Made by a program: the position numbers and the translations under genes
Source: Meghimatium bilineatum
Lineage: Eukaryota > Mollusca > Gastropoda > Stylommatophora > Philomycidae
Direction: 5' to 3'
DNA length: 64,000 nucleotides
NCBI GenBank assembly: GCA_034231615.1
Contig: CM067306.1
Coordinates: 31,566,617 to 31,630,616 of the forward strand
Shown: piece after piece, positions 17,259 through 64,000 of the stretch
How positions within the stretch are numbered: position 1 is the first letter of the stretch
How the letters are laid out: each line of letters begins with the position of its first letter
The notes under the pieces: generated by a model
Databases searched by the model: none
What the model was told of the DNA's origin: nothing
Seen by the model: only the letters and a program-made list of their open reading frames with translations

Positions 17259-17259
17259 C

Positions 17260-18012: not shown

Positions 18013-18038
18013 TTTTTCACTATTCTGAAATATTTAGG

Positions 18039-18521: not shown

Positions 18522-18732
18522 AACAGCACAGTGTTCATGATCAGGTTTTGAACTCGGAGCGAGTTTGACAGATTTGTATTTGTTAGATGGGTTCAATAAT
18601 GATTCAGCTAACAAGTTGATGAATTACATTATAGTATAGATAAGAATTAATTCTCTGTTTTGACTTTTAACCCATTGGCTATCGCAGCCAAAAAGATATT
18701 TGAAACAGTAGTTAAAAGGAGAATCATCATCA
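18522..18732. other. Unassigned spacer ending in a TGA-type LINE tail
   Basis: No gene is recognised. CATCATCATCA at about 18,725-18,735 is the (TGA)n tail of the minus-strand LINE to its right. Confidence 0.5.
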
Positions 18733-19184: not shown

Positions 19185-19213
19185 ATATGGACTTGTTGCA
19201 TAGGATTTGTTGC

Positions 19214-19721: not shown

Positions 19722-19726
19722 TGATG

Positions 19727-19838
19727 GTGCAGTAGAATAGTTTAGTAGCCCTTGGTACAGTAGAATAGTTTAGCCGCCCTTGGTACAGTAGAATAGTTTA
19801 GTAGCCCTTGGTACAGTAGAATAGTTTAGAAGCCCTTG
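19727..19838. repeat. 28-bp minisatellite, 4 copies, at the satellite boundary
   Basis: Exactly four 28-bp units (GTACAGTAGAATAGTTTAGT plus AGCCCTTG, with small variants) fill the gap between the LINE 3' tail and the first satellite monomer. The first unit may grow out of the LINE tail (GGTGCAGTAG). Confidence 0.93.
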
Positions 19839-22800
19839 TTTGTATGTTGCATATTTACATACAAAGTACATTTCATAAAAATGTTTACTTCTGAATTTTG
19901 CACTATAGGAACTAAGTAGAAAAAATAATGTGTTTATATGTAATATATTTATATACAAGGAAAATTTTATAAAAATATTTACTTCTGATTTTTGTACTAT
20001 AGGAACTAAGTAGATATAGAATGTGTTTATATGTCACATAAAAAAAGATAATTCTTTTTAAATGTTTATTTTTTGAATTTTGCACTATAGGATCTAAGTA
20101 GAAAAATAATGTGTTAAAATGTTGCATATTTATATACAAAGTATATAATATAATAATGTTTCCTTCTGAATTTTGCACTATAAGAACTAAATAGAAAATG
20201 AATGTGTTTATATGTCGCATAAAAAGAAAAATTTTTAAATGTTTATAAGAATGTGTTAATATGGCGCATATATACATACAAAGTATATTTTTTTTAAATG
20301 TTTAACTTCTGGATTTTGCACTATTGGAACTAAGCAGAAAAAGAATGTGTTTATATGACATATATTTATATACAAGGTAAATTTTGAAAAATATTTACTT
20401 CTGATGTTTGCACTATAGGAACTAAGTAGAAAAAGAATGTGTTAATATGTCGCATATTTACATACAAAGTATATTTTATAAAAATGTTTACTTCTGAAAT
20501 TTGCACTATAGGAACTAAGTAGAAAAAGAATGTGTTTATGTAGCATAAATATAAAATAGTAAATTTTTTAAATGTTTATTTTTTGAATTTTGCTCTATAG
20601 GAACTAAGTAGAAAAAGAATGTGTTTATATGTCATATATACAAGGTAAATTTTATAAAAATATTTACTTCTGATTTTTGCACTATAGGAATTAAGTAGAA
20701 ATGGAATGTGTTTATATGTCGCATAAAAAGAAATTTTTAAAAAATGTTTATAAGAATGTTTTAATATGCCGCATATTTACATACAAAGTATATTTTATAA
20801 AAATGTTTACTTCTGAATTTTGCACTATAGAAACTAGGTAGAAAAAAATAATGTCATAGGAACTAAGTAGAAAAAGAATGTGTTTATATGTCATATATTT
20901 ATATACAAGGTAAATTTTATAAAAATATTTACTTCTGATTTTTGCATCATAGGATCTAAGCAGTAAAAGAATGTGTTTATGTAGCATAAATATAAAATAG
21001 TAAATTTTTTTAATGTTTATTTTTTGAATTTTGCACTATAGGAATTAAGTAGAAAAAGAATGTGTTTATATGTCGCATCAAAAGAAATTTTTTTATAAGA
21101 ATGTGTTAATATGGCGCATATTTACATACAAAGTATATTTTATAAAAATGTTTACTTCTGAATTTTGCACTATAGGAACTAAGTAGAAATAGAATGTAGC
21201 ATAAAAAAGAAAATTCTTTTTTAATGTTTATCTTTTGAATTTTGCACTATAGGAATTAAGTAGAAAAAGAATGTGTTTATATGTCATATATACAAGGTAA
21301 ATTTTATAAAAATATTTACTCCTGATTTTTGCACTATAGGAATTAAGTAGAAATGGAATGTGTTTATATGTCGCGTAAAAAGAAATTAAAAAAAAATGTT
21401 TATAAGAATGTGTTAATATGGCGCATATTTACATACAAAGTATATTTTATAAAAATGTTTACTTCTGAATTTTGCACTATAGAAACTAGGTAGAAAAAAA
21501 TAATGTCATAGGAACTAAGTAGAAAAAGAATGTGTTTATATGTCATATATTTATATACAAGGTAAATTTTATAAAAATATTTACTTCTGATTTTTGCATC
21601 ATAGGATCTAAGCAGTAAAAGAATGTGTTTATGTAGCATAAAAATAAAATAGTAAATTTTTTTAATGTTTATTTTTTGAATTTTGCACTATAGGAATTAA
21701 GTAGAAAAAGAATGTGTTTATATGTCGCATCAAAAGAAAATTTTTAAAATTTTTTATAAGAATGTGTTAATATGGCGCATATTTACATACAAAGTATATT
21801 TTATAAAAATGTTTACTTCTGAATTTTGCACTATTGGAACTAAGCAGAAAAAAATGTGTTTATATGTCATATATTTATATACAAGGTAAATTTTATAAAA
21901 ATATTTACTTCTGATTTTTGCACTATAGGAACTAAGTAGAAATAGAATGTGTTTATGTACATAAATATAAAATAGTAAATTTTTTTAATGTTTATTTTTT
22001 GAATTTTTCACTATAGGAATTAAGTAGAAAAAGAATGTGTTTATATGTCATATATACAAGGTAAATTTTATAAAAATATTTACTTCTGATTTTTGCACTA
22101 TAGGAATTAAGTAGAAAAAGAATGTGTTTATATGTCGCATCAAAAGACGTTTTTTTATAAGAATGTGTTAATATGGCGCATATTTACATACAAAGTATAT
22201 TTTATAAAAATGTTTACTTCTGAATTTTGCACTATTGGAACTAAGCAGATAAAAATGTGTTTATATGTCATATATTTATATACAAGGTATATTTTATAAA
22301 AATATTTACTTCCTATTTTTGCACTATAGGAACTAAGTAGAAATAGAATGTAGCATAAAAAAAGAAAATTATTTTTTAATGTTTATTTTTTGAATTTTGC
22401 ACTATAGGAATTAAGTAGAAAAAGAATGTGTTTATATGTCATATATACAAGGAAAATTTTATAAAAATATTTACTTCTGATTTTTGCACTATAGGAATTA
22501 AGTAGAAATGGAATGTGTTTATATGTCACATAAAAAGAAAAAAGGAAATTTTATAAAAATGTTTATTTTTTGAATTTTGCACTATAGGATCTAAGCAGTA
22601 AAAGAATGTGTTTATATAGTAGCATAAATATAAAATAGTAAATTTTTGTGATGTTTATTTTTTAAATTTTGCACTATAGGAATTAAGTAGAAAAAGAATG
22701 TGTTTATATGTCGCATCAAAAGAAAATTTTTAAAATTTATTATAAGAATGTATTAATATGGCGCATATTTACATACAAAGTATATTTTATAAAAATGTTT

Positions 22801-24170
22801 ACTTCTGAATTTTGCACTATTGGAACTAAGCAGAAAAAAATGTGTTTATATGTCATATATTTATATACAAGGTAAATTTTAGTAAAATATTTACTTCTGA
22901 TTTTTGCACTATAGGAACTAAGTAGAAAAAAGAATGTGTTTATGTCGCAGAAATATAAAAAAGTAAATTTTTAAAATATTTATTTTTGAATTTTGCGCTA
23001 TAGGAATTAAGTAAAATAGAATGTGTTTATTTGTCATATATACAAGGACAATTTTATAAAAATATTAACTTCTGATTTTTGCACTTTATGAATTAAGTAG
23101 AAAAAGAATGTGTTTATATGTCGCATCAAAAGAAAATTTTTTAAATTTTTTATAAGAATGTGTTAATATGGCGCATATTTACATACATAGTATATTTTAT
23201 AAAAATGTTTACTTCTGAATTTTGCACTATTGGAACTAAGCAGAAAAAAATGTGTTTATATGTCAAATATTTATATACAAGGTAAATTTTATAAAAATAT
23301 TTACTTCTGATTTTTGCACTATAGGAACTAAGTAGAAATAGAATGTGTTTATATGTAGCATAAAAAAAGAATATTCTTTTTAAATGTTAATTTTTTGAAT
23401 TTTGCACTATAGGATTTAAGTAGAAAAGGAATGTATTTATATGTCATATATACAAGGTAAATTTTATAAAAATATTTACTTCTGATTTTTGCACTATAGG
23501 AATTAAGTAGAAATAGAATGTGTTTATATGTCGCATAAAAAGAAAATTTTTAAAAATGTTTATAAGAATGTGTTAATATGGCGCATATTTACATACAAAG
23601 TATATTTTATACAAATGTTTACTTCTGAATTTTGCACTATAGAAACTAGGTAAAAAAAAATGTCATAAGAACTAAGTAGAAAAAGAATGTGTTTATATGT
23701 CATATATTTATATACAAGGTAAATTTTATAAAAATATTTACTTCTGATTTTTGCATCATAGGAACTAAGTAGAAAAAGAATGTGTTTATATGTCACATAA
23801 AAAGAAAAAGGAAATTTTATAAAAATGTTTATTTTTGAATTTTGCACTATAGGAACTAAGTAGAAATAGAATGTGTTTATATGTAGCATAAAAAAAGAAT
23901 ATTCTTTTTAAATGTTAATTTTTGGAATTTTGCACTATAGGATCTAAGTAGTAAAAGAATGTGTTTATGTACATAAATATAAAATAGTAAATTTTTTAAT
24001 GTTTATTTTTTGAATTTTGCACTATAGGAATTAAGTAGAAAAAGAATGTGTTTATATGTCATATATACAAGGTAAATTTTATAAAAATATTTACTTCTGA
24101 TTTTTGCACTATAGGAATTAAGAAGAAATAGAATGTGTTTATATGTCATATATAAAGAAAATTTTTTTAA
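19839..24170. repeat. Irregular left edge of the satellite
   Basis: Monomer order is variable and point differences and deletions are more frequent than further right. One two-copy duplication is clear, with an offset of 652 bp (landmarks at 20,748 and 21,400). Such divergence is usual at satellite array ends. Confidence 0.8.
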
Positions 24171-24174
24171 ATGT

Positions 24175-27100
24175 TTATAAGAATGTGTTAATATGGCGCA
24201 TATTTACATACAAAGTATATTTTATAAAAATGTTTACTTCTGAATTTTGCACTATAGAAACTAGGTAGAAAAAAATAATGTCATAGGAACTAATTAGAAA
24301 AAGAATGTGTTTATATGTCATATATTTATATACAAGGTAAATTTTATAAAAATATTTACTTCTGATTTTTGCATCATAGGAACTAAGTAGAAAAAGAATG
24401 TGTTTATATGTCACATAAAAAGAAAAAGGAAATTTTATAAAAATGTTTATTTTTGAATTTTGCACTATAGGAACTAAGTAGAAATAGAATGTGTTTATAT
24501 GTAGCATAAAAAAAGAATATTCTTTTTAAATGTTAATTTTTTGAATTTTGCACTATAGGAATTAAGTAGAAAAAGAATGTATGTCATATATACAAGGTAA
24601 ATTTTATAAAAATATTTACTTCTGATTTTTGCACTATAGGAATTAAGTAGAAATAGAATGTGTTTATATGTCGCATAAAAAGAAAATTTTTTTAAATGTT
24701 TATAAGAATGTGTTAATATGGCGCATATTTACATACAAAGTATATTTTATAAAAATGTTTACTTCTGAATTTTGCACTATAGAAACTAGGTAGAAAAAAA
24801 TAATGTCATAGGAACTAAGTAGAAAAAGAATGTGTTTATATGTCATATATTTATGTACAAGGTAAATTTTATAAAAATATTTACTTCTGATTTTTGCATC
24901 ATAGGAACTAAGTAGAAAAAGAATGTGTTTATATGTCACAAAAAAAGAAAAAGGAAATTTTATAAAAATGTTTATTTTTGAATTTTGCACTATAGGAACT
25001 AAGTAGAAATAGAATGTGTTTATATGTAGCATAAAAAAAGAATATTCTTTTTAAATGTTAATTTTTGGAATTTTGCACTATAGGATCTAAGTAGTAAAAG
25101 AATGTGTTTATGTACATAAATATAAAATAGTAAATTTTTTAATGTTTATTTTTTGAATTTTGCAATATAGGAATTAAGTAGAAAAAGAATGTGTTTATAT
25201 GTCATATATACAAGGTAAATTTTATAAAAATATTTACTTCTGATTTTTGCACTATAGGAATTAAGAAGAAATAGAATGTGTTTATATGTCATATATAAAG
25301 AAAATTTTTTTAAATGTTTATAAGAATGTGTTAATATGGCGCATATTTACATACAAAGCATATTTTATAAAAATGTTTACTTCTGAATTTTGCACTATAG
25401 AAACTAGGTAGAAAAAAATAATGTCATAGGAACTAAGTAGAAAAAGAATGTGTTTATATGTCATATATTTATATACAAGGTAAATTTTATAAAAATATTT
25501 ACTTCTGATTTTTGCATCATAGGAACTAAGTAGAAAAAGAATGTGTTTATATGTCACAAAAAAAGAAAAAGGAAATTTTATAAAAATGTTTATTTTTGAA
25601 TTTTGCACTATAGGAACTAAGTAGAAATAGAATGTGTTTATATGTAGCATAAAAAAAGAATATTCTTTTTAAATGTTGATTTTTTGAATTTTGCACTATA
25701 GGAATTAAGTAGAAAAGGAATGTATTTATATGTCATATATACAAGGTAAATTTTATAAAAATATTTACTTCTGATTTTTGCACTATAGGAATTAAGTAGA
25801 AATAGAATGTGTTTATATGTCGCATAAAAAGAAAATTTTTAAAAATGTTTATAAGAATGTGTTAATATGGCGCATATTTACATACAAAGTATATTTTATA
25901 CAAATGTTTACTTCTGAATTTTGGACTATAGAAACTAGGTAGAAAAAAAAAATGTCATAGGAACTAAGTAGAAAAAGAATGTGTTTATATGTCATATATT
26001 TATATACAAGGTAAATTTTATAAAAATATTTACTTCTGATTTTTGCATCATAGGAACTAAGTAGAAAAAGAATGTGTTTATATGTCACATAAAAAGAAAA
26101 AGGAAATTTTATAAAAATGTTTATTTTTGAATTTTGCACTATAGGAACTAAGTAGAAATAGAATGTGTTTATATGTAGCATAAAAAAAGAATATTCTTTT
26201 TAAATGTTAATTTTTTGAATTTTGCACTATAGGAATTAAGTAGAAAAAGAATGTGTTTATATGTCATATATACAAGGTAAATTTTATAAAAATATTTACA
26301 TCTGATTTTTGCACTATAGGAATTAAGTAGAAATAGAATGTGTTTATATGTCGCATAAAAAGAAAATTTTTTAAAATGTTTATAAGAATGTGTTAATATG
26401 GCGCATATTTACATACAAAGTATATTTTATAAAAATGTTTACTTCTGAATTTTGCACTATAGAAACTAGGTAGAAAAAAATAATGTCATAGGAACTAAGT
26501 AGAAAAAGAATGTGTTTATATGTCATATATTTATATACAAGGTAAATTTCATAAGAATATTTACTTCTGATTTTTGCATCATAGGAACTAAGTAGAAAAA
26601 GAATGTGTTCATATGTCACAAAAAAAGAAAAAGGAAATTTTATAAAAATGTTTATTTTTGAATTTTGCACTATAGGAACTAAGTAGAAATAGAATGTGTT
26701 TATATGTAGCATAAAAAAAGAATATTCTTTTTAAATGTTAATTTTTTGAATTTTGCACTATAGGAATTAAGTAGAAAAGGAATGTATTTATATGTCATAT
26801 ATACAAGGTAAATTTTATAAAAATATTTACTTCTGATTTTTGCACTATAGGAATTAAGTAGAAATAGAATGTGTTTATATGTCGCATAAAAAGAAAATTT
26901 TTAAAAATGTTTATAAGAATGTGTTAATATGGCGCATATTTACATACAAAGTATATTTTATACAAATGTTTACTTCTGAATTTTGCACTATAGAAACTAG
27001 GTAGAAAAAAAAAATGTCATAGGAACTAAGTAGAAAAAGAATGTGTTTATATGTCATATATTTATATACAAGGTAAATTTTATAAAAATATTTACTTCTG

Positions 27101-28150
27101 ATTTTTGCATCATAGGAACTAAGTAGAAAAAGAATGTGTTTATATGTCACATAAAAAGAAAAAGGAAATTTTATAAAAATGTTTATTTTTGAATTTTGCA
27201 CTATAGGAACTAAGTAGAAATAGAATGTGTTTATATGTCACATAAAAAGAAAAAGGAAATTTTATAAAAATGTTTATTTTTGAATTTTGCACTATAGGAA
27301 CTAAGTAGAAATAGAATTTGTTTATATGTAGCATAAAATAAGAATATTCTTTTTAAATGTTAATTTTTGGAATTTTGCACTATAGGATCTAAGTAGTAAA
27401 AGAATGTGTTTATGTACATAAATATAAAATAGTAAATGTTTTAATGTTTATTTTTTGAATTTTGCACTATAGGAATTAAGTAGAAAAAGAATGTGTTTAT
27501 ATGTCATATATACAAGGTAAATTTTATAAAAATATGTACATCTGATTTTTGCACTATAGGAATTAAGTAGAAATAGAATGTGTTTATATGTCGCATAAAA
27601 AGAAAATTTTTAAAAATGTTTATAAGAATGTGTTAATATGGCGCATATTTACATACAAAGTATATTTTATAAAAATGTTTACTTCTGAATTTTGCACTAT
27701 AGAAACTAGGTAGAAAAAAATAATGTCATAGGAACTAAGTAGAAAAAGAATGTGTTTATATGTCATATATTTATATACAAGGTAAATTTCATAAAAATAT
27801 TTACTTCTGATTTTTGCATCATAGGAACTAAGTAGAAAAAGAATGTGTTTATATGTCACAAAAAAAGAAAAAGGAAATTTTATAAAAATGTTTATTTTTG
27901 AATTTTGCACTATAGGAACTAAGTAGAAATAGAATGTGTTTATATGTAGCATAAAAAAAGAATATTCTTTTTAAATGTTAATTTTTTGAATTTTGCACTA
28001 TAGGAATTAAGTAGAAAAGGAATGTATTTATATGTCATATATACAAGGTAAATTTTATAAAAATATTTACTTCTGATTTTTGCACTATAGGAATTAAGTA
28101 GAAATAGAATGTGTTTATATGTCGCATAAAAAGAAAATTTTTTAAAATGT
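24175..28150. repeat. 531-bp higher-order units, left block
   Basis: Identical landmarks recur at 25,318, 25,849, 26,380 and 26,911 (531-bp steps), and again at 27,620 and 28,151. The unit order is F, short monomer, A, C, D, B, E. Interspersed longer steps (525, 618, 709) reflect gain or loss of monomers, including a duplicated C monomer near 27,130-27,330. Confidence 0.88.
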
Positions 28151-31048
28151 TTATAAGAATGTGTTAATATGGCGCATATTTACATACAAAGTATATTTTA
28201 TACAAATGTTTACTTCTGAATTTTGCACTATAGAAACTAGGTAGAAAAAAAAAATGTCATAGGAACTAAGTAGAAAAAGAATGTGTTTATATGTCATATA
28301 TTTATATACAAGGTAAATTTTATAAAAATATTTACTTCTGATTTTTGCATCATAGGAACTAAGTAGAAAAAGAATGTGTTTATATGTCACATAAAAAGAA
28401 AAAGGAAATTTTATAAAAATGTTTATTTTTGAATTTTGCACTATAGGAACTAAGCAGTAAAAGAATGTTTTTATGTAGCATAAATATAAAATAGTAAATT
28501 TTTTTAATGTTTATTTTTTGAATTTTGCTCTATAGGATATAGTAGAAAAAGAATGTGTTTATATGTCATATATACAAGGAAAATTTTATAAAAATATTTA
28601 CTTCTGATTTTTGCACTATAGGAATTAAGTAGAAAAAGATTGTGTTTATATGTCGCATCAAAAGAAAATTTTTAAATTTTTATTATAAGAATGTGTTAAT
28701 ATGGCGCATATTTACATACAAAGTATATTTTATAAAAATGTTTACTTCTGAATTTTGCACTATTGGAACTAAGCAGAAAAAGAATGTGTTTATATGTCAT
28801 ATATTTATATACAAGGTATTTTTTATAAAAATATTTACTTCTGATTTTTGCATCATAGGAACTAAGTAGAAAAAGAATGTGTTTATATGTCACATAAAAA
28901 GAAAAAAAGGACATTTTATAAAAATGTTTATTTTTTTAATTTTGCACTATAGGATCTAAGCAGTAAAAGAATGTGTTTATGTAGTAGCATAAATATAAAA
29001 TAGTAAATTTTTTTGATGTTTATTTTTTTAATTTTGCACTATAGGAATTAAGTAGAAAAAGAATGTGTTTATATGTCATATATACAAGGAAAATTTTATA
29101 AAATATTTACTTCTGATTTTTGCACTATAGGAATTAAGTAGAAAAAGAATGTGTTTATATGTCGCATCAAAATAAAATTTTTTAAATTTTTTATAAGAAT
29201 GTGTTAATATGGCGCATATTTACATACAAAGTATATTTTATAAAAATGTTTACTTCTGAATTTTGCACTATTGGAACTAAGCAGAAAAAAATGTGTTTAT
29301 ATGTCATATATTTATATACAAGGTAAATTTTAGTAAAATATTTACTTCTGATTTTTGCACTATAGGAACTAAGTAGTAAAAGAATGTGTTTATGTACATA
29401 AATATAAAATAGTAAATTTTTTAATGTTTATTTTTTGAATTTTGCACTATAGGAATTAAGTAGAAAAAGAATGTGTTTATATGTCATATATACAAGGTAA
29501 ATTTTATAAAAATATTTACTTCTGATTTTTGCACTATAGGAATTAAGTAGAAATAGAATGTGTTTATATGTCGCATAAAAAGAAAATTTTTTAAAATGTT
29601 TATAAGAATGTGTTAATATGGCGCATATTTACATACAAAGTATATTTTATACAAATGTTTACTTCTGAATTTTGCACTATAGAAACTAGGTAGAAAAAAA
29701 AAATGTCATAGGAACTAAGTAGAAAAAGAATGTGTTTATATGTCATATATTTATATACAAGGTAAATTTTATAAAAATATTTACTTCTGATTTTTGCATC
29801 ATAGGAACTAAGTAGAAAAAGAATGTGTTTATATGTCACATAAAAAGAAAAAGGAAATTTTATAAAAATGTTTATTTTTGAATTTTGCACTATAGGAACT
29901 AAGCAGTAAAAGAATGTTTTTATGTAGCATAAATATAAAATAGTAAATTTTTTTAATGTTTATTTTTTGAATTTTGCTCTATAGGATATAGTAGAAAAAG
30001 AATGTGTTTATATGTCATATATACAAGGAAAATTTTATAAAAATATTTACTTCTGATTTTTGCACTATAGGAATTAAGTAGAAAAAGATTGTGTTTATAT
30101 GTCGCATCAAAAGAAAATTTTTAAATTTTTATTATAAGAATGTGTTAATATGGCGCATATTTACATACAAAGTATATTTTATAAAAATGTTTACTTCTGA
30201 ATTTTGCACTATTGGAACTAAGCAGAAAAAGAATGTGTTTATATGTCATATATTTATATACAAGGTATTTTTTATAAAAATATTTACTTCTGATTTTTGC
30301 ATCATAGGAACTAAGTAGAAAAAGAATGTGTTTATATGTCACATAAAAAGAAAAAAAGGACATTTTATAAAAATGTTTATTTTTTTAATTTTGCACTATA
30401 GGATCTAAGCAGTAAAAGAATGTGTTTATGTAGTAGCATAAATATAAAATAGTAAATTTTTTTGATGTTTATTTTTTTAATTTTGCACTATAGGAATTAA
30501 GTAGAAAAAGAATGTGTTTATATGTCATATATACAAGGAAAATTTTATAAAATATTTACTTCTGATTTTTGCACTATAGGAATTAAGTAGAAAAAGAATG
30601 TGTTTATATGTCGCATCAAAATAAAATTTTTTAAATTTTTTATAAGAATGTGTTAATATGGCGCATATTTACATACAAAGTATATTTTATAAAAATGTTT
30701 ACTTCTGAATTTTGCACTATTGGAACTAAGCAGAAAAAAATGTGTTTATATGTCATATATTTATATACAAGGTAAATTTTAGTAAAATATTTACTTCTGA
30801 TTTTTGCACTATAGGAACTAAGTAGTAAAAGAATGTGTTTATGTACATAAATATAAAATAGTAAATTTTTTAATGTTTATTTTTTGAATTTTGCACTATA
30901 GGAATTAAGTAGAAAAAGAATGTGTTTATATGTCATATATACAAGGTAAATTTTATAAAAATATTTACTTCTGATTTTTGCACTATAGGAATTAAGTAGA
31001 AATAGAATGTGTTTATATGTCGCATAAAAATGAAATTTTTTTTAATGT
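28151..31048. repeat. 1449-bp unit, two tandem copies
   Basis: Landmarks at 28,151, 28,642 and 28,696 recur at 29,600, 30,091 and 30,145. Private variants are shared (GGATATAGTAG, GAAAAAAAGGACATTT, AGAATGTTTTTATG), which shows block duplication. Confidence 0.9.
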
Positions 31049-33464
31049 TTATAAGAATGTGTTAATATGGCGCATATTTACATACAAAGTATATTTTATA
31101 AAAATGTTTACTTCTGAATTTTGCACTATAGAAACTAGGTAGAAAAAAATAATGTCATAGGAACTAAGTAGAAAAAGAATGTGTTTATATGTCATATATT
31201 TATATACAAGGTAAATTTTATAAAAATATTTACTTCTTTTTTTGCATCATAGGAACTAAGTAGAAAAAGAATGTGTTTATATGTCACATAAAAAGAAAAA
31301 GGCAATTTTATAAAAGTGTTTATTTTTGAATTTTGCACTATAGGAACTAAGCAGTAAAAGAATGTTTTTATGTAGCATAAATATAAAATAGTAAATTTTT
31401 TTAATGTTTATTTTTTGAATTTTGCTCTATAGGATATAGTAGAAAAAGAAGGTGTTTATATGTCATATATACAAGGAAAATTTTATAAAATATTTACTTC
31501 TGATTTTTGCACTATAGGAATTAAGTAGAAAAAGAATGTGTTTATATGTCGCATCAAAAGAAAAATTTTTAAATTTTTTATAAGAATGTGTTAATATGGC
31601 GCATATTTACATACAAAGTATATTTTATAAAAATGTTTACTTCTGAATTTTGCACTATTGGAACTAAGCAGAAAAAAATGTGTTTATATGTCATATATTT
31701 ATATACAAGGTAAATTTTAGTAAAATATTTACTTCTGATTTTTGCACTATAGGAACTAAGTAGAAAAAAGAATGTGTTTATGTCGCAGAAATATAAAATA
31801 GTAAATTTTTTAATGTTTATTTTTTGAATTTTGCACTATAGGAATTAAGTAGAAAAAGAATGTGTTTATATGTCATATATACAAGGTAAATTTTATAAAA
31901 ATATTTACTTCTGATTTTTGCACTATAGGAATTAAGTAGAAATAAAATGTGTTTATATGTCGCATAAAAAGAAAATTTTTTAAAATGTTTATAATAATGT
32001 GTTAATATGGTGCATATTTACATACAAAGTATATTTTATAAAAATGTTTACTTCTGAATTTTGCACTATAGAAACTAGGTAGAAAAAAATAATGTCATAG
32101 GAACTAAGTAGAAAAAGAATGTGTTTATATGTCACATAAAAAGAAAAAGGAAATTTTATAAAAATGTTTATTTTTGAATTTTGCACTATAGGAACTAAGT
32201 AGAAATAGAATGTGTTTATATGTAGCATAAAAAAAGAATATTCTTTTTAAATGTTAATTTTTTGAATTTTGCACTATAGGATCTAAGTAGTAAAAGAATG
32301 TGTTTATGTACATAAATATAAAATAGTAAATTTTTTAATGTTTATTTTTTGAATTTTGCACTATAGGAATTAAGTAGAAAAAGAATGTGTTTATATGTCA
32401 TATATACAAGGTAAATTTTATAAAAATATTTACTTCTGATTTTTGCACTATAGGAATTAAGTAGAAATAGAATGTGTTTATATGTCGCATAAAAAGAAAA
32501 TTTTTTAAAATGTTTATAAGAATGTGTTAATATGGCGCATATTTACATACAAAGTATATTTTATAAAAATATTTACTTCTGAATTTTGCACTATAGAAAC
32601 TAGGTAGAAAAAAATAATGTCATAGGAACTAAGTAGAAAAAGAATGTGTTTATATGTCATATATTTATATACAAGGTAAATTTTATAAAAATATTTACTT
32701 CTTTTTTTGCATCATAGGAACTAAGTAGAAAAAGAATGTGTTTATATGTCACATAAAAAGAAAAAGGAAATTTTATAAAAATGTTTATTTTTGAATTTTG
32801 CACTATAGGAACTAAGCAGTAAAAGAATGTTTTTATGTAGCATAAATATAAAATAGTAAATTTTTTTAATGTTTATTTTTTGAATTTTGCTCTATAGGAT
32901 ATAGTAGAAAAAGAATGTGTTTATATGTCATATATACAAGGAAAATTTTATAAAATATTTACTTCTGATTTTTGCACTATAGGAATTAAGTAGAAAAAAA
33001 TTGTGTTTATATGTCGCATCAAAAGAAAATTTTTTAAATTTTTTATAAGAATGTGTTAATATGGCGCATATTTACATACAAAGTATATTTTATAAAAATG
33101 TTTACTTCTGAATTTTGCACTATTGGAACTAAGCAGAAAAAAATGTGTTTATATGTCATATATTTATATACAAGGTAAATTTTAGTAAAATATTTACTTC
33201 TGATTTTTGCACTATAGGAACTAAGTAGAAAAAAGAATGTGTTTATGTCGCAGAAATATAAAATAGTAAATTTTTTAATGTTTATTTTTTGAATTTTGCA
33301 CTATAGGAATTAAGTAGAAAAAGAATGTGTTTATATGTCATATATACAAGGTAAATTTTATAAAAATATTTACATCTGATTTTTGCACTATAGGAATTAA
33401 GTAGAAATAGAATGTGTTTATATGTCGCATAAAAAGAAAATTTTTTAAAATGTTTATAAGAATG

Positions 33465-36400
33465 TGTTAATATGGCGCATATTTACATACAAAGTATATT
33501 TTATAAAAATGTTTACTTCTGAATTTTGCACTATAGAAACTAGGTAGAAAAAAATAATGTCATAGGAACTAAGTAGAAAAAGAATGTGTTTATATGTCAT
33601 ATATTTATATACAAGGTAAATTTCATAAGAATATTTACTTCTGATTTTTGCATCATAGGAACTAAGTAGAAAAAGAATGTGTTTATATGTCACAAAAAAA
33701 GAAAAAGGAAATTTTATAAAAATGTTTATTTTTGAATTTTGCACTATAGGAACTAAGTAGAAATAGAATGTGTTTATATGTAGCATAAAAAAAGAATATT
33801 CTTTTTAAATGTTAATTTTTTGAATTTTCACTATAGGATCTAAGTAGTAAAAGAATGTGTTTATGTATATAAATATAAAATAGTAAATTTGTTAATGTTT
33901 ATTTTTTGAATTTTGCACTATAGGAATTAAGTAGAAAAAGAATGTGTTTATATGTCATATATACAAGGTAAATTTTATAAAAATATTTACTTCTGATTTT
34001 TGCACTATAGGAATTAAGTAGAAATAGAATGTGTTTATATGTCGCATAAAAAGAAAATTTTTTAAAATGTTTATAAGAATGTGTTAATATGGCGCATATT
34101 TACATACAAAGTATATTTTATAAAAATGTTTACTTCTGAATTTTGCACTATAGAAACTAGGTAGAAAAAAATAATGTCATAGGAACTAAGTAGAAAAAGA
34201 ATGTGTTTATATGTCATATATTTATATACAAGGTAAATTTTATAAAAATATTTACTTCTGATTTTTGCATCATAGGAACTAAGTAAAAAAAGAATGTGTT
34301 TATATGTCACATAAAAAGAAAAAGGAAATTTTATAAAAATGTTTATTTTTGAATTTTGCACTATAGGAACTAAGCAGTAAAAGAATGTTTTTATGTAGCA
34401 TAAATATAAAATAGTAAATTTTTTTAATGTTTATTTTTTGAATTTTGCTCTATAGGATATAGTAGAAAAAGAATGTGTTTATATGTCATATATACAAGGA
34501 AAATTTTATAAAATATTTACTTCTGATTTTTGCACTATAGGAATTAAGTAGAAAAAGAATGTGTTTATATGTCGCATCAAAAGAAAATTTTTAAAATTTT
34601 TTATAAGAATGTGTTAATATGGCGCATATTTACATACAAAGTATATTTTATAAAAATGTTTACTTCTGAATTTTGCACTATTGGAACTAAGCAGAAAAAA
34701 ATGTGTTTATATGTCATATATTTATATACAAGGTAAATTTTAGTAAAATATTTACTTCTGATTTTTGCACTATAGGAACTAAGTAGAAAAAAGAATGTGT
34801 TTATGTCGCAGAAATATAAAATAGTAAATTTTTTAATGTTTATTTTTTGAATTTTGCACTATAGGAATTAAGTAGAAAAAGAATGTGTTTATATGTCATA
34901 TATACAAGGTAAATTTTATAAAAATATTTACTTCTGATTTTTGCACTATAGGAATTAAGTAGAAATAAAATGTGTTTATATGTCGCATAAAAAGAAAATT
35001 TTTTTAAATGTTTATAATAATGTGTTAATATGGCGCATATTTACATACAAAGTATATTTTATAAAAATGTTTACTTCTGAATTTTGCACTATAGAAACTA
35101 GGTAGAAAAAAATAATGTCATAGGAACTAAGTAGAAAAAGAATGTGTTTATATGTCACATAAAAAGAAAAAGGAAATTTTATAAAAATGGATTTTTGAAT
35201 TTTGCACTATAGGAACTAAGTAGAAATAGAATGTGTTTATATGTAGCATAAAAAAAGAATATTCTTTTTAAATGTTAATTTTTTGAATTTTGCACAATAG
35301 GATCTAAGTAGTAAAAGAATGTGTTTATGTACATAAGTATAAAATAGTAAATTTTTTAATGTTTATTTTTTGAATTTTGCACTATAGGAATTAAGTAGAA
35401 AAAGAATGTGTTTATATGTCATATATACAAGGTAAATTTTATAAAAATATTTACTTCTGATTTTTGCACTATAGGAATTAAGTAGAAATAGAATGTGTTT
35501 ATATGTCGCATAAAAAGAAAATTTTTTTAAATGTTTATAAGAATGTGTTAATATGGCGCATATTTACATACAAAGTATATTTTATAAAAATGTTTACTTC
35601 TGAATTTTGCACTATAGAAACTAGGTAGAAAAAAATAATGTCATAGGAACTAAGTAGAAAAAGAATGTGTTTATATGTCATATATTTATATACAAGGTAA
35701 ATTTTATAAAAATATTTACTTCTTTTTTTGCATCATAGGAACTAAGTAGAAAAAGAATGTGTTTATATGTCACATAAAAAGAAAAAGGAAATTTTATAAA
35801 AATGTTTATTTTTGAATTTTGCACTATAGGAACTAAGCAGTAAAAGAATGTTTTTATGTAGCATAAATATAAAATAGTAAATTTTTTTAATGTTTATTTT
35901 TTGAATTTTGCTCTATAGGATATAGTAGAAAAAGAATGTGTTTATATGTCATATATACAAGGAAAATTTTATAAAATATTTACTTCTGATTTTTGCACTA
36001 TAGGAATTAAGTAGAAAAAGATTGTGTTTATATGTCGCATCAAAAGAAAATTTTTAAAATTTTTTATAAGAATGTGTTAATATGGCGCATATTTACATAC
36101 AAAGTATATTTTATAAAAATGTTTACTTCTGAATTTTGCACTATTGGAACTAAGCAGAAAAAAATGTGTTTATATGTCATATATTTATATACAAGGTAAA
36201 TTTTAGTAAAATATTTACTTCTGATTTTTGCACTATAGGAACTAAGTAGAAAAAAGAATGTGTTTATGTCGCAGAAATATAAAATAGTAAATTTTTTAAT
36301 GTTTATTTTTTGAATTTTGCACTATAGGAATTAAGTAGAAAAAGAATGTGTTTATATGTCATATATACAAGGTAAATTTTATAAAAATATTTACTTCTGA

Positions 36401-39400
36401 TTTTTGCACTATAGGAATTAAGTAGAAATAAAATGTGTTTATATGTCGCATAAAAAGAAAATTTTTTTAAATGTTTATAATAATGTGTTAATATGGCGCA
36501 TATTTACATACAAAGTATATTTTATAAAAATGTTTACTTCTGAATTTTGCACTATAGAAACTAGGTAGAAAAAAATAATGTCATAGGAACTAAGTAGAAA
36601 AAGAATGTGTTTATATGTCATATATTTATATACAAGGTAAATTTCATAAGAATATTTACTTCTGATTTTTGCATCATAGGAACTAAGTAGAAAAAGAATG
36701 TGTTTATATGTCACAAAAAAAGAAAAAGGAAATTTTATAAAAATGTTTATTTTTGAATTTTGCACTATAGGAACTAAGTAGAAATAGAATGTGTTTATAT
36801 GTAGCATAAAAAAAGAATATTCTTTTTAAATGTTAATTTTTTGAATTTTCACTATAGGATCTAAGTAGTAAAAGAATGTGTTTATGTATATAAATATAAA
36901 ATAGTAAATTTGTTAATGTTTATTTTTTGAATTTTGCACTATAGGAATTAAGTAGAAAAAGAATGTGTTTATATGTCATATATACAAGGTAAATTTTATA
37001 AAAATATTTACTTCTGATTTTTGCACTATAGGAATTAAGTAGAAATAGAATGTGTTTATATGTCGCATAAAAAGAAAATTTTTTAAAATGTTTATAAGAA
37101 TGTGTTAATATGGCGCATATTTACATACAAAGTATATTTTATAAAAATGTTTACTTCTGAATTTTGCACTATAGAAACTAGGTAGAAAAAAATAATGTCA
37201 TAGGAACTAAGTAGAAAAAGAATGTGTTTATATGTCATATATTTATATACAAGGTAAATTTTATAAAAATATTTACTTCTGATTTTTGCATCATAGGAAC
37301 TAAGTAAAAAAAGAATGTGTTTATATGTCACATAAAAAGAAAAAGGAAATTTTATAAAAATGTTTATTTTTGAATTTTGCACTATAGGAACTAAGCAGTA
37401 AAAGAATGTTTTTATGTAGCATAAATATAAAATAGTAAATTTTTTTAATGTTTATTTTTTGAATTTTGCTCTATAGGATATAGTAGAAAAAGAATGTGTT
37501 TATATGTCATATATACAAGGAAAATTTTATAAAATATTTACTTCTGATTTTTGCACTATAGGAATTAAGTAGAAAAAGAATGTGTTTATATGTCGCATCA
37601 AAAGAAAATTTTTAAAATTTTTTATAAGAATGTGTTAATATGGCGCATATTTACATACAAAGTATATTTTATAAAAATGTTTACTTCTGAATTTTGCACT
37701 ATTGGAACTAAGCAGAAAAAAATGTGTTTATATGTCATATATTTATATACAAGGTAAATTTTAGTAAAATATTTACTTCTGATTTTTGCACTATAGGAAC
37801 TAAGTAGAAAAAAGAATGTGTTTATGTCGCAGAAATATAAAATAGTAAATTTTTTAATGTTTATTTTTTGAATTTTGCACTATAGGAATTAAGTAGAAAA
37901 AGAATGTGTTTATATGTCATATATACAAGGTAAATTTTATAAAAATATTTACTTCTGATTTTTGCACTATAGGAATTAAGTAGAAATAAAATGTGTTTAT
38001 ATGTCGCATAAAAAGAAAATTTTTTTAAATGTTTATAATAATGTGTTAATATGGCGCATATTTACATACAAAGTATATTTTATAAAAATGTTTACTTCTG
38101 AATTTTGCACTATAGAAACTAGGTAGAAAAAAATAATGTCATAGGAACTAAGTAGAAAAAGAATGTGTTTATATGTCACATAAAAAGAAAAAGGAAATTT
38201 TATAAAAATGGATTTTTGAATTTTGCACTATAGGAACTAAGTAGAAATAGAATGTGTTTATATGTAGCATAAAAAAAGAATATTCTTTTTAAATGTTAAT
38301 TTTTTGAATTTTGCACAATAGGATCTAAGTAGTAAAAGAATGTGTTTATGTACATAAGTATAAAATAGTAAATTTTTTAATGTTTATTTTTTGAATTTTG
38401 CACTATAGGAATTAAGTAGAAAAAGAATGTGTTTATATGTCATATATACAAGGTAAATTTTATAAAAATATTTACTTCTGATTTTTGCACTATAGGAATT
38501 AAGTAGAAATAGAATGTGTTTATATGTCGCATAAAAAGAAAATTTTTTTAAATGTTTATAAGAATGTGTTAATATGGCGCATATTTACATACAAAGTATA
38601 TTTTATAAAAATGTTTACTTCTGAATTTTGCACTATAGAAACTAGGTAGAAAAAAATAATGTCATAGGAACTAAGTAGAAAAAGAATGTGTTTATATGTC
38701 ATATATTTATATACAAGGTAAATTTTATAAAAATATTTACTTCTTTTTTTGCATCATAGGAACTAAGTAGAAAAAGAATGTGTTTATATGTCACATAAAA
38801 AGAAAAAGGAAATTTTATAAAAATGTTTATTTTTGAATTTTGCACTATAGGAACTAAGCAGTAAAAGAATGTTTTTATGTAGCATAAATATAAAATAGTA
38901 AATTTTTTTAATGTTTATTTTTTGAATTTTGCTCTATAGGATATAGTAGAAAAAGAATGTGTTTATATGTCATATATACAAGGAAAATTTTATAAAATAT
39001 TTACTTCTGATTTTTGCACTATAGGAATTAAGTAGAAAAAGATTGTGTTTATATGTCGCATCAAAAGAAAATTTTTAAAATTTTTTATAAGAATGTGTTA
39101 ATATGGCGCATATTTACATACAAAGTATATTTTATAAAAATGTTTACTTCTGAATTTTGCACTATTGGAACTAAGCAGAAAAAAATGTGTTTATATGTCA
39201 TATATTTATATACAAGGTAAATTTTAGTAAAATATTTACTTCTGATTTTTGCACTATAGGAACTAAGTAGAAAAAAGAATGTGTTTATGTCGCAGAAATA
39301 TAAAATAGTAAATTTTTTAATGTTTATTTTTTGAATTTTGCACTATAGGAATTAAGTAGAAAAAGAATGTGTTTATATGTCATATATACAAGGTAAATTT

Positions 39401-39495
39401 TATAAAAATATTTACTTCTGATTTTTGCACTATAGGAATTAAGTAGAAATAAAATGTGTTTATATGTCGCATAAAAAGAAAATTTTTTTAAATGT
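33465..39495. repeat. 3021-bp unit, two tandem copies
   Basis: Landmarks at 33,454 and 34,071 recur at 36,475 and 37,092. Rare private variants recur at the same 3021-bp offset: GAATTTTCACTATAGG (G lost), AAAAATGGATTTTTG, and ACATAAGTATAAAATAG. Flanks differ just left of about 33,465. A third start at 39,496 diverges after about 125 bp, so there are about two copies. Confidence 0.9.
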
Positions 39496-48783: not shown

Positions 48784-48870
48784 TATTTACTTCTGATTTT
48801 TGCACTATAGGAATTAAGTAGAAATAGAATGTGTTTATATGTCGCATAAAAAGAAAATTTTTTTAAATGT

Positions 48871-51800: not shown

Positions 51801-54273
51801 AAAAAAGAATATTCTTTTTAAATGTTAATTTTTGGAATTTTGCACTATAGGATCTAAGTAGTAAAAGAATGTGTTTATATGTAGCATAAAAAAAGAATAT
51901 TCTTTTTAAATGTTTATTTTTTGAATTTTGCACTATAGGAATTAAGTAGAAAAAGAATGTGTTTATATGTCATATATACAAGGTAAATTTTATAAAAATA
52001 TTTACTTCTGATTTTTGCACTATAGGAATTAAGAAGAAATAGAATGTGTTTATATGTCGCATAAAAAGAAAATTTTTTAAAATGTTTATAAGAATGTGTT
52101 AATATGGCGCATATTTACATACAAAGTATATTTTATAAAAATGTTTACTTCTGAATTTCGCACTATAGAAACTAGGTAGAAAAAAATAATGTCATAGGAA
52201 CTAAGTAGAAAAAGAATGTGTTTATATGTCATATATTTATATACAAGGTAAATTTTATAAAAATATTTACTTCTTTTTTTTGCATCATAGGAACTAAGTA
52301 GAAAAAGAATGTGTTTATATGTCACATAAAAATAAAAAGGAAATTTTATAAAAATGTTTATTTTTGAATTTTGCACTATAGGAACTAAGCAGTAAAAGAA
52401 TGTTTTTATGTAGCATAAATATAAAATAGTAAATTTTTTTAATGTTTATTTTTTGAATTTTGCTCTATAGGATATAGTAGAAAAAGAATGTGTTTATATG
52501 TCATATATACAAGGAAAATTTTATAAAAATATTTACTTCTGATTTTTGCACTATAGGAATTAAGTAGAAAAAGATTGTGTCTATATGTCGCATCAAAAGA
52601 AAATTTTTAAATTTTTATTATAAGAATGTGTTAATATGGCGCATATTTACATACAAAGTATATTTTATAAAAATGTTTACTTCTGAATTTTGCACTATTG
52701 GAACTAAGCAGAAAAAGAATGTGTTTATATGTCATATATTTATATACAAGGTAAATTTTATAAAAATATTTACTTCTGATTTTTGCATCATAGGAACTAA
52801 GTAGAAAAAGAATGTGTTTATATGTCACATAAAAAGAAAAAAGGAAATTTTATAAAAATGTTTATTTTTTGAATTTTGCACTATAGGATCTAAGCATAAA
52901 AAAATGTGTTTATGTAGTAGCATAAATATAAAATAGTAAATTTTTTTGATGTTTATTTTTTTAATTTTGCACTATAGGAATTAAGTAGAAAAAGAATGTG
53001 TTTATATGTCATATATACAAGGACAATTTTATAAAATATTTACTTCTGATTTTTGCACTATAGGAATTAAGTAGAAAAAGAATGTGTTTATATGTCGCAT
53101 CAAAATAAAAATTTTTAAATTTTTTATAAGAATGTGTTAATATGGCGCATATTTACATACAAAGTATATTTTATAAAAATGTTTACTTCTGAATTTTGCA
53201 CTATAGAAACTAGGTAGAAAAAAATAATGTCATAGGAACTAAGTAGAAAAAGAATGTGTTTATATGTCATATATTTATATACAAGGTAAATTTTATAAAA
53301 ATATTTACTTCTGATTTTTGCATCATAGGAACTAAGTAGAAATAGAATGTGTTTATATGTCACATAAAAAGAAAAAGGAAATTTTATAAAAATGTTTATT
53401 TTTGAATTTTGCACTATAGGAACTAAGTAGAAATAGAATGTGTTTATATGTAGCATAAAAAAAGAATATTCTTTTTAAATGTTAATTTTTTGAATTTTGC
53501 ACTATAGGAATTAAGTAGAAAAAGAATGTATTTATATGTCATATATACAAGGTAAATTTTATAAAAATATTTACTTCTGATTTTTGCACTATAGGAATTA
53601 AGTAGAAATAGAATGTGTTTATATGTCGCATAAAAAGAAAATTTTTAAAAATGTTTATAAGAATGTGTTAATATGGCGCATATTTACATACAAAGTATAT
53701 TTTATAAAAATGTTTACTTCTGAATTTTGCACTATAGAAACTAGGTAGAAAAAAATAATGTCATAGGAACTAAGTAGAAAAAGAATGTGTTTATATGTCA
53801 TATATTTATATACAAGGTAAATTTTATAAAAATATTTACTTCTGATTTTTGCATCATAGGAACTAAGTAAAAAAAGAATGTGTTTATATGTCACATAAAA
53901 AGAAAAAGGAAATTTTATAAAAATGTTTATTTTTGAATTTTGCACTATAGGAACTAAGTAGAAATAGAATGTGTTTATATGTAGCATAAAAAAAGAATAT
54001 TCTTTTTAAATGTTAATTTTATGGAATTTTGCACTATAGGATCTAAGTAGTAAAAGAATGTGTTTATGTACATAAATATAAAATAGTAAATTTTTTAATG
54101 TTTATTTTTTGAATTTTGCACTATAGGAATTAAGTAGAAAAAGAATGTGTTTATATGTCATATATACAAGGTAAATTTTATAAAAATATTTACTTCTGAT
54201 TTTTGCACTATAGGAATTAAGTAGAAATAGAATGTGTTTATATGTCACATAAAAAGAAAATTTTTTAAAATGT
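48871..54273. repeat. 1650- and 3215-bp units
   Basis: Landmarks at 48,871, 50,521 and 52,086 share private changes (GAATTTCGCAC, ACTTCTTTTTTTTGC, AAAAATAAAAAGG, TTGTGTCTATATG). The steps are 1650 and 1565 bp; the 85-bp difference equals one monomer. Hence 3215 bp separates 48,871 from 52,086 and 49,362 from 52,577. Confidence 0.87.
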
Positions 54274-57200
54274 TTATAAGAATGTGTTAATATGGCGCAT
54301 ATTTACATACAAAGTATATTTTATAAAAATGTTTACTTCTGAATTTCGCACTATAGAAACTAGGTAGAAAAAAATAATGTCATAGGAACTAAGTAGAAAA
54401 AGAATGTGTTTATATGTCATATATTTATATACAAGGTAAATTTTATAAAAATATTTACTTCTTTTTTTTGCATCATAGGAACTAAGTAGAAAAAGAATGT
54501 GTTTATATGTCACATAAAAATAAAAAGGAAATTTTATAAAAATGTTTATTTTTGAATTTTGCACTATAGGAACTAAGCAGTAAAAGAATGTTTTTATGTA
54601 GCATAAATATAAAATAGTAAATTTTTTTAATGTTTATTTTTTGAATTTTGCTCTATAGGATATAGTAGAAAAAGAATGTGTTTATATGTCATATATACAA
54701 GGAAAATTTTATAAAAATATTTACTTCTGATTTTTGCACTATAGGAATTAAGTAGAAAAAGATTGTGTCTATATGTCGCATCAAAAGAAAATTTTTAAAT
54801 TTTTATTATAAGAATGATGGCGCATATTTACATACAAAGTATATTTTATAAAAATGTTTACTTCTGAATTTTGCACTATTGGAACTAAGCAGAAAAAGAA
54901 TGTGTTTATATGTCATATATTTATATACAAGGTAAATTTTATAAAAATATTTACTTCTGATTTTTGCATCATAGGAACTAAGTAGAAAAAGAATGTGTTT
55001 ATATGTCACATAAAAAGAAAAAAGGAAATTTTATAAAAATGTTTATTTTTTGAATTTTGCACTATAGGATCTAAGCAGAAAAAAATGTGTTTATGTAGTA
55101 GCATAAATATAAAATAGTAAATTTTTTTGATGTTTATTTTTTTAATTTTGCACTATAGGAATTAAGTAGAAAAAGAATGTGTTTATATGTCATATATACA
55201 AGGACAATTTTATAAAATATTTACTTCTGATTTTTGCACTATAGGAATTAAGTAGAAAAAGAATGTGTTTATATGTCGCATCAAAATAAAAATTTTTAAA
55301 TTTTTTATAAGAATGTGTTAATATGGCGCATATTTACATACAAAGTATATTTTATAAAAATGTTTACTTCTGAATTTTGCACTATAGAAACTAGGTAGAA
55401 AAAAATAATGTCATAGGAACTAAGTAGAAAAAGAATGTGTTTATATGTCATATATTTATATACAAGGTAAATTTTATAAAAATATTTACTTCTGATTTTT
55501 GCATCATAGGAACTAAGTAGAAATAGAATGTGTTTATATGTCACATAAAAAGAAAAAGGAAATTTTATAAAAATGTTTATTTTTGAATTTTGCACTATAG
55601 GAACTAAGTAGAAATAGAATGTGTTTATATGTAGCATAAAAAAAGAATATTCTTTTTAAATGTTAATTTTTTGAATTTTGCACTATAGGAATTAAGTAGA
55701 AAAAGAATGTATTTATATGTCATATATACAAGGTAAATTTTATAAAAATATTTACTTCTGATTTTTGCACTATAGGAATTAAGTAGAAATAGAATGTGTT
55801 TATATGTCGCATAAAAAGAAAATTTTTAAAAATGTTTATAAGAATGTGTTAATATGGCGCATATTTACATACAAAGTATATTTTATAAAAATGTTTACTT
55901 CTGAATTTTGCACTATAGAAACTAGGTAGAAAAAAATAATGTCATAGGAACTAAGTAGAAAAAGAATGTGTTTATATGTCATATATTTATATACAAGGTA
56001 AATTTTATAAAAATATTTACTTCTGATTTTTGCATCATAGGAACTAAGTAAAAAAAGAATGTGTTTATATGTCACATAAAAAGAAAAAGGAAATTTTATA
56101 AAAATGTTTATTTTTGAATTTTGCACTATAGGAACTAAGTAGAAATAGAATGTGTTTATATGTAGCATAAAAAAAGAATATTCTTTTTAAATGTTAATTT
56201 TATGGAATTTTGCACTATAGGATCTAAGTAGTAAAAGAATGTGTTTATGTACATAAATATAAAATAGTAAATTTTTTAATGTTTATTTTTTGAATTTTGC
56301 ACTATAGGAATTAAGTAGAAAAAGAATGTGTTTATATGTCATATATACAAGGTAAATTTTATAAAAATATTTACTTCTGATTTTTGCACTATAGGAATTA
56401 AGTAGAAATAGAATGTGTTTATATGTCACATAAAAAGAAAATTTTTTAAAATGTTTATAAGAATGTGTTAATATGGCGCATATTTACATACAAAGTATAT
56501 TTTATAAAAATGTTTACTTCTGAATTTCGCACTATAGAAACTAGGTAGAAAAAAATTATGTCATAGGAACTAAGTAGAAAAAGAATGTGTTTATATGTCA
56601 TATATTTATATACAAGGTAAATTTTATAAAAATATTTACTTCTTTTTTTGCATCTTAGGAACTAAGTAGAAAAAGAATGTGTTTATATGTCACATAAAAA
56701 TAAAAAGGAAATTTTATAAAAATGTTTATTTTTGAATTTTGCACTATAGGAACTAAGCAGTAAAAGAATGTTTTTATGTAGCATAAATATAAAATAGTAA
56801 ATTTTTTTAATGTTTATTTTTTGAATTTTGCTCTATAGGATATAGTAGAAAAAGAATGTGTTTATATGTCATATATACAAGGAAAATTTTATAAAAATAT
56901 TTACTTCTGATTTTTGCACTATAGGAATTAAGTAGAAAAAGATTGTGTCTATATGTCGCATCAAAAGAAAATTTTTAAATTTTTATTATAAGAATGTGTT
57001 AATATGGCGCATATTTACATACAAAGTATATTTTATAAAAATGTTTACTTCTGAATTTTGCACTATTGGAACTAAGCAGAAAAAGAATGTGTTTATATGT
57101 CATATATTTATATACAAGGTAAATTTTAGTAAAATATTTACTTCTGATTTTTGCACTATAGGAACTAAGTAGAAAAAAGAATGCGTTTATGTCGCAGAAA

Positions 57201-57485
57201 TATAAAATAGTAAATTTTTTAATGTTTATTTTTTGAATTTTGCACTATAGGAATTAAGTAGAAAAAGAATGTGTTTATATGTCATATATACAAGGTAAAT
57301 TTTATAAAAATATTTACTTCTGATTTTTGCACTATAGGAATTAAGTAGAAATAAAATGTGTTTATATGTCGCATAAAAAGAAATTTTTTTAAAATGTTTA
57401 TAAGAATGTGTTAATATGGCGCATATTTACATACAAAGTATATTTTATAAAAATGTTTACTTCTGAATTTTGCACTATAGAAACT
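53124..57485. repeat. 2181-bp unit, two tandem copies
   Basis: Landmarks at 53,124 and 53,655 recur at 55,305 and 55,836. Private variants recur at the same offset, for example TTAATTTTATGGAATTTT near 54,014 and 56,195. The right end of the second copy merges into the 2664-bp pattern. Confidence 0.87.
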
Positions 57486-63400: not shown

Positions 63401-64000
63401 TATAAAAATATTTACTTCTGATTTTTGCACTATAGGAATTAAGTAGAAATAGAATGTGTTTATATGTCGCATAAAAAGAAAATTTTTTAAAATGTTTATA
63501 AGAATGTGTTAATATGGCGCATATTTACATACAAAGTATATTTTATAAAAATGTTTACTTCTGAATTTCGCACTATAGAAACTAGGTAGAAAAAAATAAT
63601 GTCATAGGAACTAAGTAGAAAAAGAATGTGTTTATATGTCATATATTTATATACAAGGTAAATTTTATAAAAATATTTACTTCTTTTTTTTGCATCATAG
63701 GAACTAAGTAGAAAAAGAATGTGTTTATATGTCACATAAAAATAAAAAGGAAATTTTATAAAAATGTTTATTTTTAAATTTTGCACTATAGGAACTAAGC
63801 AGTAAAAGAATGTTTTTATGTAGCATAAATATAAAATAGTAAATTTTTTTAATGTTTATTTTTTGAATTTTGCTCTATAGGATATAGTAGAAAAAGAATG
63901 TGTTTATATGTCATATATACAAGGAAAATTTTATAAAAATATTTACTTCTGATTTTTGCACTATAGGAATTAAGTAGAAAAAGATTGTGTCTATATGTCG
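56945..64000. repeat. 2664- and 2432-bp units at the right edge
   Basis: Landmarks at 56,945 and 59,609 are 2664 bp apart, and 59,609 and 62,041 are 2432 bp apart. 57,398 and 60,062 also differ by 2664 bp, and 58,530 and 60,962 by 2432 bp. Copies share rare variants such as AGAATGCGTTTATG and GATGTTTCTTTTTTG. The window ends inside a monomer. Confidence 0.85.

Follow-up and report, generated by a model that had tools for sequence, protein, structure and literature searches.

How higher-order repeats originate is a long-standing question that is usually studied at centromeres, where each array has its own history. The question is raised by a 64,000-bp stretch of the genome of the gastropod Meghimatium bilineatum (GCA_034231615.1, contig CM067306.1), hereafter the window, which corresponds to C9:31566617–31630616 in an assembly of 1.612 Gb and 32 contigs (C1 etc.). 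From position 19839 onwards (positions without a contig refer to the window), it is occupied by a satellite array in which a box of about 40 bp, common to all monomer classes, alternates with linkers of different classes. An earlier note, made from the sequence alone, had described this array, likened it to primate alpha satellite, suggested a centromeric or heterochromatic role, and proposed monomer clustering and a search of the assembly. It overlooked the flank as part of the repeat. The array almost certainly belongs to a dispersed unit, and the explanation we favour overall is that it forms the satellite portion of a giant unit of this kind and evolves by exchange through the box.

A common junction and flank at dispersed loci

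The left junction of the array, where a 28-bp repeat meets the first monomer, was found at 15 places with at most 3 mismatches (reversed control, 0). These were located on contigs C1, C2, C9, C11, C22, C23, C24 and C25, with up to three per contig. The sequence just left of the junction, the right end of the left arm, occurred at exactly 64 places at the same threshold, 32 per strand, on 21 of the 32 contigs and up to seven times per contig. Each of the 15 junctions had one of these 64 right ends no more than 400 bp away.

In the 3.3 kb read at 10 of the 13 junction loci outside the pair on C9, nearly the whole flank of about 3 kb was common to all 10 loci, in blocks 88–94% alike and with the minisatellites included. 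A flank and junction shared by dispersed loci are the pattern expected of a transposable element carrying a satellite. Across a 1.1-kb stretch near the junction, ten rows were 96.7–99.1% alike and the two C9 copies were identical; rows L032 and L036 aligned poorly to most others, perhaps via indels. The first 280 bp of the array were 94–97% alike among seven loci, while the window and one other locus were 83–88% identical to those seven and to each other. At C1:61962523 (L033) and C22:64486827 (L041), the same insertion followed the first monomer and the first 280 bp of the array were identical, which points to recent copying, either between these two units or from a source common to both.

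Probes whose order and strand were preserved at a third to a half of the loci tested traced the left arm at least to C9:31546352, approximately 40 kb left of the junction. At 17 of 51 right ends, the 67-bp repeat (Table 1), about 18 kb left of the junction in the window, had an exact match 16.5–22.8 kb upstream (75 places from the 100 matches listed, and the right ends on fully listed contigs); wrong-side and wrong-strand controls were 0. A 65-bp repeat, 27.7 kb left of the junction, had a right end 22–32 kb downstream at 9 of 16 loci drawn from 100 of 558 matches, and a 48-bp repeat, about 40 kb left, had one 35–51 kb downstream at 8 of 18 loci drawn from 100 of 101 matches (controls 0 for both). 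Each of the three counts includes the two C9 copies. On C2, a 1.5-kb stretch 10 kb out was collinear at 84% identity. Exact copies of the probe at 8688 stood, by eye, at the matching place in the units on C1, C2 and C4:7.93M; this probe counts for less because its family is so abundant (Table 1).

The search of the assembly yielded 40,136 matches to the box (control 0), with the junction on other contigs as well. With 353 boxes in the 44.2 kb of array in the window, and if density is alike elsewhere, this corresponds to approximately 5.0 Mb of satellite. On C1–C4, where the exact boxes were complete but for the last cluster, there were five clusters; three started 165–341 bp after a right end and two started 93 and 209 kb after one.

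Several observations count against so simple a picture of a unit with arm and array. No array junction was found at 3 mismatches at 49 of the 64 right ends, and the 12 right ends on C1–C4 divided into 3 with exact boxes within 341 bp, 2 with distant clusters and 7 with none. Right ends without an exact box imply that not every copy has a recognisable array. An exact 67-bp copy was missing upstream of 34 of the 51 right ends, and a right end at the expected distance was missing at 7 of 16 (65-bp) and 10 of 18 (48-bp) loci; many copies thus appear to be without one part or another. The distance ranges for the probes were set after the lists had been inspected, with the same ranges applied to the controls. 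Sequence was read over about 3 kb at 10 loci and 1.5 kb at one, and sharing of the remaining arm is indicated by short probes. The identities of flank and array edge were not positively related (r −0.29, the two poorly aligned rows included).

The same counts bear on the suggested centromeric or heterochromatic role, for which no support was found. An ordinary (peri)centromeric higher-order satellite with one functional array per chromosome would be consistent with the nested, locus-specific higher-order units, the AT-rich composition and the position of the C1 and C9 arrays near the middles of their contigs. Instead of one main locus per chromosome, we found up to three junctions and up to seven right ends per contig in both orientations, which leaves a centromeric reading unsupported, and the loci read had the same non-satellite flank. 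The best match to a CENP-B-box-like motif had 4 mismatches at 9 key positions, no better than shuffles (2–4). We consider a centromeric array very unlikely, and membership of a dispersed unit is the reading retained below.

Monomer classes and higher-order units

The satellite described from 19839 to the end of the window was borne out by Tandem Repeats Finder, the composition profile and a box scan. The array continues beyond the window to C9:31671914, for a total of 85.5 kb, on a single strand throughout; the box scan detected no box on the opposite strand. Its GC content was 0.205–0.215, compared with 0.32–0.39 leftward. Within the window, 476 monomers ended, 168 of which were distinct.

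Average-linkage clustering was performed on the 340 distinct monomers among the 1551 of both C9 arrays, and ten cuts were compared. The silhouette was highest at 10 clusters (0.655) and 11 clusters (0.635), and eight large clusters (A–H) had 50–274 copies each. The discrete linker classes on one conserved box that the note had described were thus recovered, as was their fixed order: the conditional entropy of the next monomer in the window was 0.93 bits, compared with a mean of 2.82 and a minimum of 2.77 in 500 shuffles. Class A (143 bp), the commonest with 274 copies, appeared by eye to be two monomers fused with the loss of one box, and class F (31 bp) looked like a truncated box. In the 531-bp unit, the order was B A F C D G (87 + 143 + 31 + 91 + 91 + 88 bp); the class called 'short' in the note and one other class are, by eye, the two halves of class A. 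A strict alternation of two monomer types was rejected. Two right-half types exist, yet I–I steps made up 135 of 503 in the first C9 array, and class D was of type II on the left and type I on the right.

All nine unit lengths proposed (531, 652, 1449, 1650, 2181, 2432, 2664, 3021 and 3215 bp) are real. At each of these offsets, at least one 200-bp stretch reached at least 97% identity, compared with 3.5% of 200 random offsets. The weakest was 652 bp, supported by a single run of 430 bp in the diverged left margin of the array. Among the 25 longest label-identical runs listed for each array, the repeated units comprised 5 to 35 monomers in 2 to 4 copies, and adjacent copies were 94–99.9% identical (Table 1). 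Identity between classes was only 0.57–0.90 (0.22–0.34 for class F, by length), so that unit copies (0.94–0.999) were far more alike than monomer classes, as is characteristic of higher-order repeats.

Units were also specific to their array. In 10 kb each of the C1, C2 and C4 loci, a part of each array, the best self-offsets were 2642 bp, 5584 bp and 3961 bp (next 413), respectively, and all three loci had units of their own. Monomers more than 12% different from every C9 monomer made up 35% (C1), 33% (C2) and 7% (C4). The nearby flank at C1 and C2 differed by 2–3% from that of the window. Since these flanks are so similar yet the units differ, the higher-order structure appears to change more rapidly than the flank.

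A second copy was present on C9 itself. A gap of 100 N (C9:31680763–31680862) was followed by 41.6 kb largely collinear with the left flank (98.3–99.9% in the main blocks) and by a second array of approximately 108 kb with the same two boundaries as the first. The first 26 monomer labels of the two arrays agreed and the order then differed; the longest blocks shared at ≥98% were 3.3 kb. This second copy could represent either a genuine duplication or the alternative haplotype retained in tandem. An assembly artefact in which repeats were collapsed or shuffled could draw on this gap, since it joins a second flank and array, 98–99.9% alike and possibly from the other haplotype, to the same contig. 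However, other contigs also have the junction, the box and higher-order units, and we consider an artefactual array hardly credible.

Table 1. Positions of the features recognised in the window
Feature	Position	Strand	Remarks
Left arm of giant dispersed unit, window portion	1..19838	+	shared flank and collinear probes
67-bp minisatellite, 12 copies	1274..2072	+	part of left arm
Probe site of very abundant dispersed family	8688..8715	+	11,027 matches to 28-mer at 3 mismatches, both strands evenly
24-bp minisatellite, 77 copies	9869..11708	+	collinear in C2 copy
21-bp minisatellite, 23 copies	18038..18519	+	within shared 3 kb
Broken tail, presumably reverse-transcriptase-like	19521..19718	+	label putative
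28-bp tandem repeat, right end of left arm	19725..19838	+	copy number varies between loci
88-bp satellite array with higher-order units	19839..64000	+	monomers ~88 bp; extends 41.3 kb past window
Diverged left edge of array	19839..24838	+	edit distance to nearest other copy
531-bp unit B A F C D G	25158..27193	+	3.8 copies, 97.7%
1449-bp unit, 15 monomers	27991..31739	+	2.6 copies, 99.1%
3021/3023-bp unit, 33 monomers	30802..39596	+	2.91 copies, 99.6%
2181/2188-bp unit, 24 monomers	51926..57148	+	2.38 copies, 99.5%

Probable exchange through the box

Linkers behaved as intact modules. Among 1102 monomers of classes B–E, G, H and J (A, F, I and K were excluded), 5 clear and 7 doubtful chimeric linkers were detected. 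Across the box, information on the preceding class fell while that on the following class climbed. Taking the best case per type, both parents were found for 26 of 43 junction types; the crossover zone, which was wide in some cases, met the box in 23 of the 26, a linker in 1, and in 2 no overlap was found. With junctions mostly in the box and few chimeric linkers, the driving force of change in the array is probably unequal exchange at the box.

Constraint on the box offers a different account of the same junctions: selection for protein binding would keep the box alike, and junctions would fall there for lack of any other long stretch identical between classes. The box is indeed nearly invariant across classes, and repeats with a conserved box linked to CenH3 are known from nematodes. 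The difference between classes was 0.052 in the box and 0.374 in the linker, 7-fold, with the first nine columns excluded. Within classes, however, the box varied about as much as the linker (0.036 and 0.044, p 0.53), and the commonest class, A, reads as a fused pair minus one box. The contrast between and within classes is better explained by exchange through the box than by constraint acting on it today, and we regard selection as an improbable explanation. Two results speak less well for exchange. The count version of the box and linker contrast gave p 0.004, 0.010 and 0.28 at three frequency cut-offs and thus failed at the strictest, and the breakpoint test contains an element of circularity: the classes were delimited chiefly by linker sequence, which favours the box as outcome. 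Box-guided exchange is nonetheless, in our judgement, the probable mechanism.

Unequal exchange or slippage would occur mainly within the box of about 40 bp common to the classes, and would be confined there because linkers of different classes are too dissimilar to pair. Linkers would in this way be kept whole as an 'alphabet' while new letter orders are created, and stretches of about 5 to 35 letters would be amplified into higher-order units. The left edge, remote from exchange, would decay. The mean edit distance to the nearest other copy was 3.1 in the first 2.5 kb, 1.2 in the next 2.5 kb and 0.0–0.7 deeper, and left-edge monomers were more diverged than interior ones in both C9 arrays. 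The right edge of the first array does not fit this expectation, as decay was confined to the last 0.5 kb (the last three monomers). A smaller rise in divergence was observed 20–25 kb into the same array.

Nature of the unit

The unit is laid out as a left arm, about 40 kb long or longer, that contains several minisatellites and broken pieces of long interspersed nuclear elements (LINEs), followed by the 88-bp satellite and, at least on C9, by a 70-bp satellite. The length of the 88-bp satellite per copy ranged from nothing recognisable to >100 kb. We suppose that whole units spread through the genome as blocks, after which the array of each copy evolved alone.

As to the mode of copying, we lean slightly towards a unit that is or was mobile. 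The alternative is segmental duplication by ectopic exchange between repeat-rich regions, with arrays carried along. It would agree with the coding content of the arm, in which the longest frame of the 19.8-kb window portion outside minisatellites was 138 aa, and a weak RVT_1 match, below the cut-off, was obtained in one of eight pieces searched. It would also agree with the differences between copies in the parts retained, and with the common insertion and identical first 280 bp of array at C1 and C22:64.49M, as recent block copying would give. Set against it are the 64 right ends, evenly divided by strand over 21 contigs, which are more transposon-like; we consider duplication possible rather than probable. 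Mobility in turn is weakened by the failure to find termini, a target-site duplication or a transposase, the outer ends being beyond the sequence read and the search covering eight arm pieces. Two broken open reading frames about 37 kb left of the junction had no certain Pfam or NCBIfam match. In its fullest form, which we put forward tentatively, the mobile reading holds that this is a giant mobile element of >100 kb, mostly satellite, with two satellite families and several minisatellites, that seeded arrays at dozens of sites, each of which then built its own higher-order repeats through one box.

Neighbouring sequences and other observations

The 88-bp array was directly adjoined by the 70-bp AT-rich satellite (C9:31671914–31680762), and the boundary sequence between them recurred at the two C9 copies only. 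Genome-wide, 24,207 exact 30-mers of the 70-bp satellite were counted, by density roughly 10.7 Mb. By eye, two C1 arrays among the matches listed showed regular higher-order spacing; these were the only arrays in 100 listed matches, and each was 20.5–20.8 kb downstream of an exact copy of the 8688 probe in the same orientation.

The length of the unit's minisatellites differs greatly from copy to copy: the 65-bp minisatellite had 3 copies on C9 and several dozen listed matches at C7:35242598–35248545 (minus strand). In the left flank, an uninterrupted frame of 1288 aa was found on the minus strand (C9:31526670–31530533, L026), which we take to be LINE-like; with that label, some LINEs here look young. 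At C2:121988305–121991928 (L028), a nuclear copy of mitochondrial DNA contained open frames of COX1 and a putative ND2 in the invertebrate code, next to a putative ND4, in the order ND4-trnI-ND2-trnK-COX1, with tRNA-Ile and tRNA-Lys predicted between the genes; this arrangement is in keeping with a heterobranch gastropod as the probable host.

Rfam at gathering scores and a search for tRNA genes gave no match. An open frame of 116 aa was present on the minus strand of the 531-bp unit at 47067–47597, with similar frames in other units. Of 1000 dinucleotide-shuffled versions of the unit, 3 had a frame this long, and the frame is taken as an accident of AT-rich codons, which is unproven.

Relation to known systems and meaning

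The likeness to primate alpha satellite stood in respect of classes, nested units and locus-specific units, and was not supported in respect of the centromere. The two have in common a set order of diverged monomers, higher-order copies whose similarity far exceeds that of the monomers, array-specific units and a diverged edge. Unlike alpha satellite, the array described here has 88-bp monomers without a CENP-B box, several interstitial loci per contig and a shared non-satellite arm.

Satellites of Meloidogyne (Mestrovic 2013, PMC3694981) are highly divergent and form higher-order repeats with Box 1 and Box 2 and a 17-bp CENP-B-like box. They resemble the present arrays in the higher-order arrangement of diverged monomers and in junctions at conserved boxes, here 23 of the 26 junction types with both parents in the partly circular test. 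They differ in that the box here is about 40 bp, linkers are related and arrays are inside a dispersed unit. CenH3-associated tandem repeats of Meloidogyne with a 19-bp box and short arrays (Despot-Slade 2021, per PMC9673304) are likewise diverged repeats sharing one conserved box; a centromeric association was reported there, whereas the array here is known from sequence. In bivalve molluscs, short Helitron-borne satellite arrays (PMC5139131, PMC8268682) also share junction nucleotides and are carried by a dispersed element; the present unit has an arm of about 40 kb and arrays up to >100 kb with higher-order units, and no Helitron end was identified in it, though no search aimed at such ends was made. 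The centromeric TCAST of Tribolium, with 360-bp monomers (PMC7598501), is another invertebrate satellite with higher-order units of mixed subfamilies. Invertebrate higher-order repeats are thus already published for a nematode (PMC3694981) and a beetle (PMC7598501).

In the open literature searched, no description of this satellite or of any gastropod higher-order satellite was found, nor a printed copy of the box sequence. Invertebrate higher-order repeats, box junctions and element-borne satellites are each known; their combination and scale were not found in that literature.

The at least 15 unit copies with arrays starting at the same edge amount to replicated trials of the birth of higher-order repeats outside a single centromeric locus. 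The flank, with its last kilobase 1–3% apart at most loci read, serves as a clock for these trials. The unit also illustrates a way in which long satellite arrays could pass from one chromosome to another.

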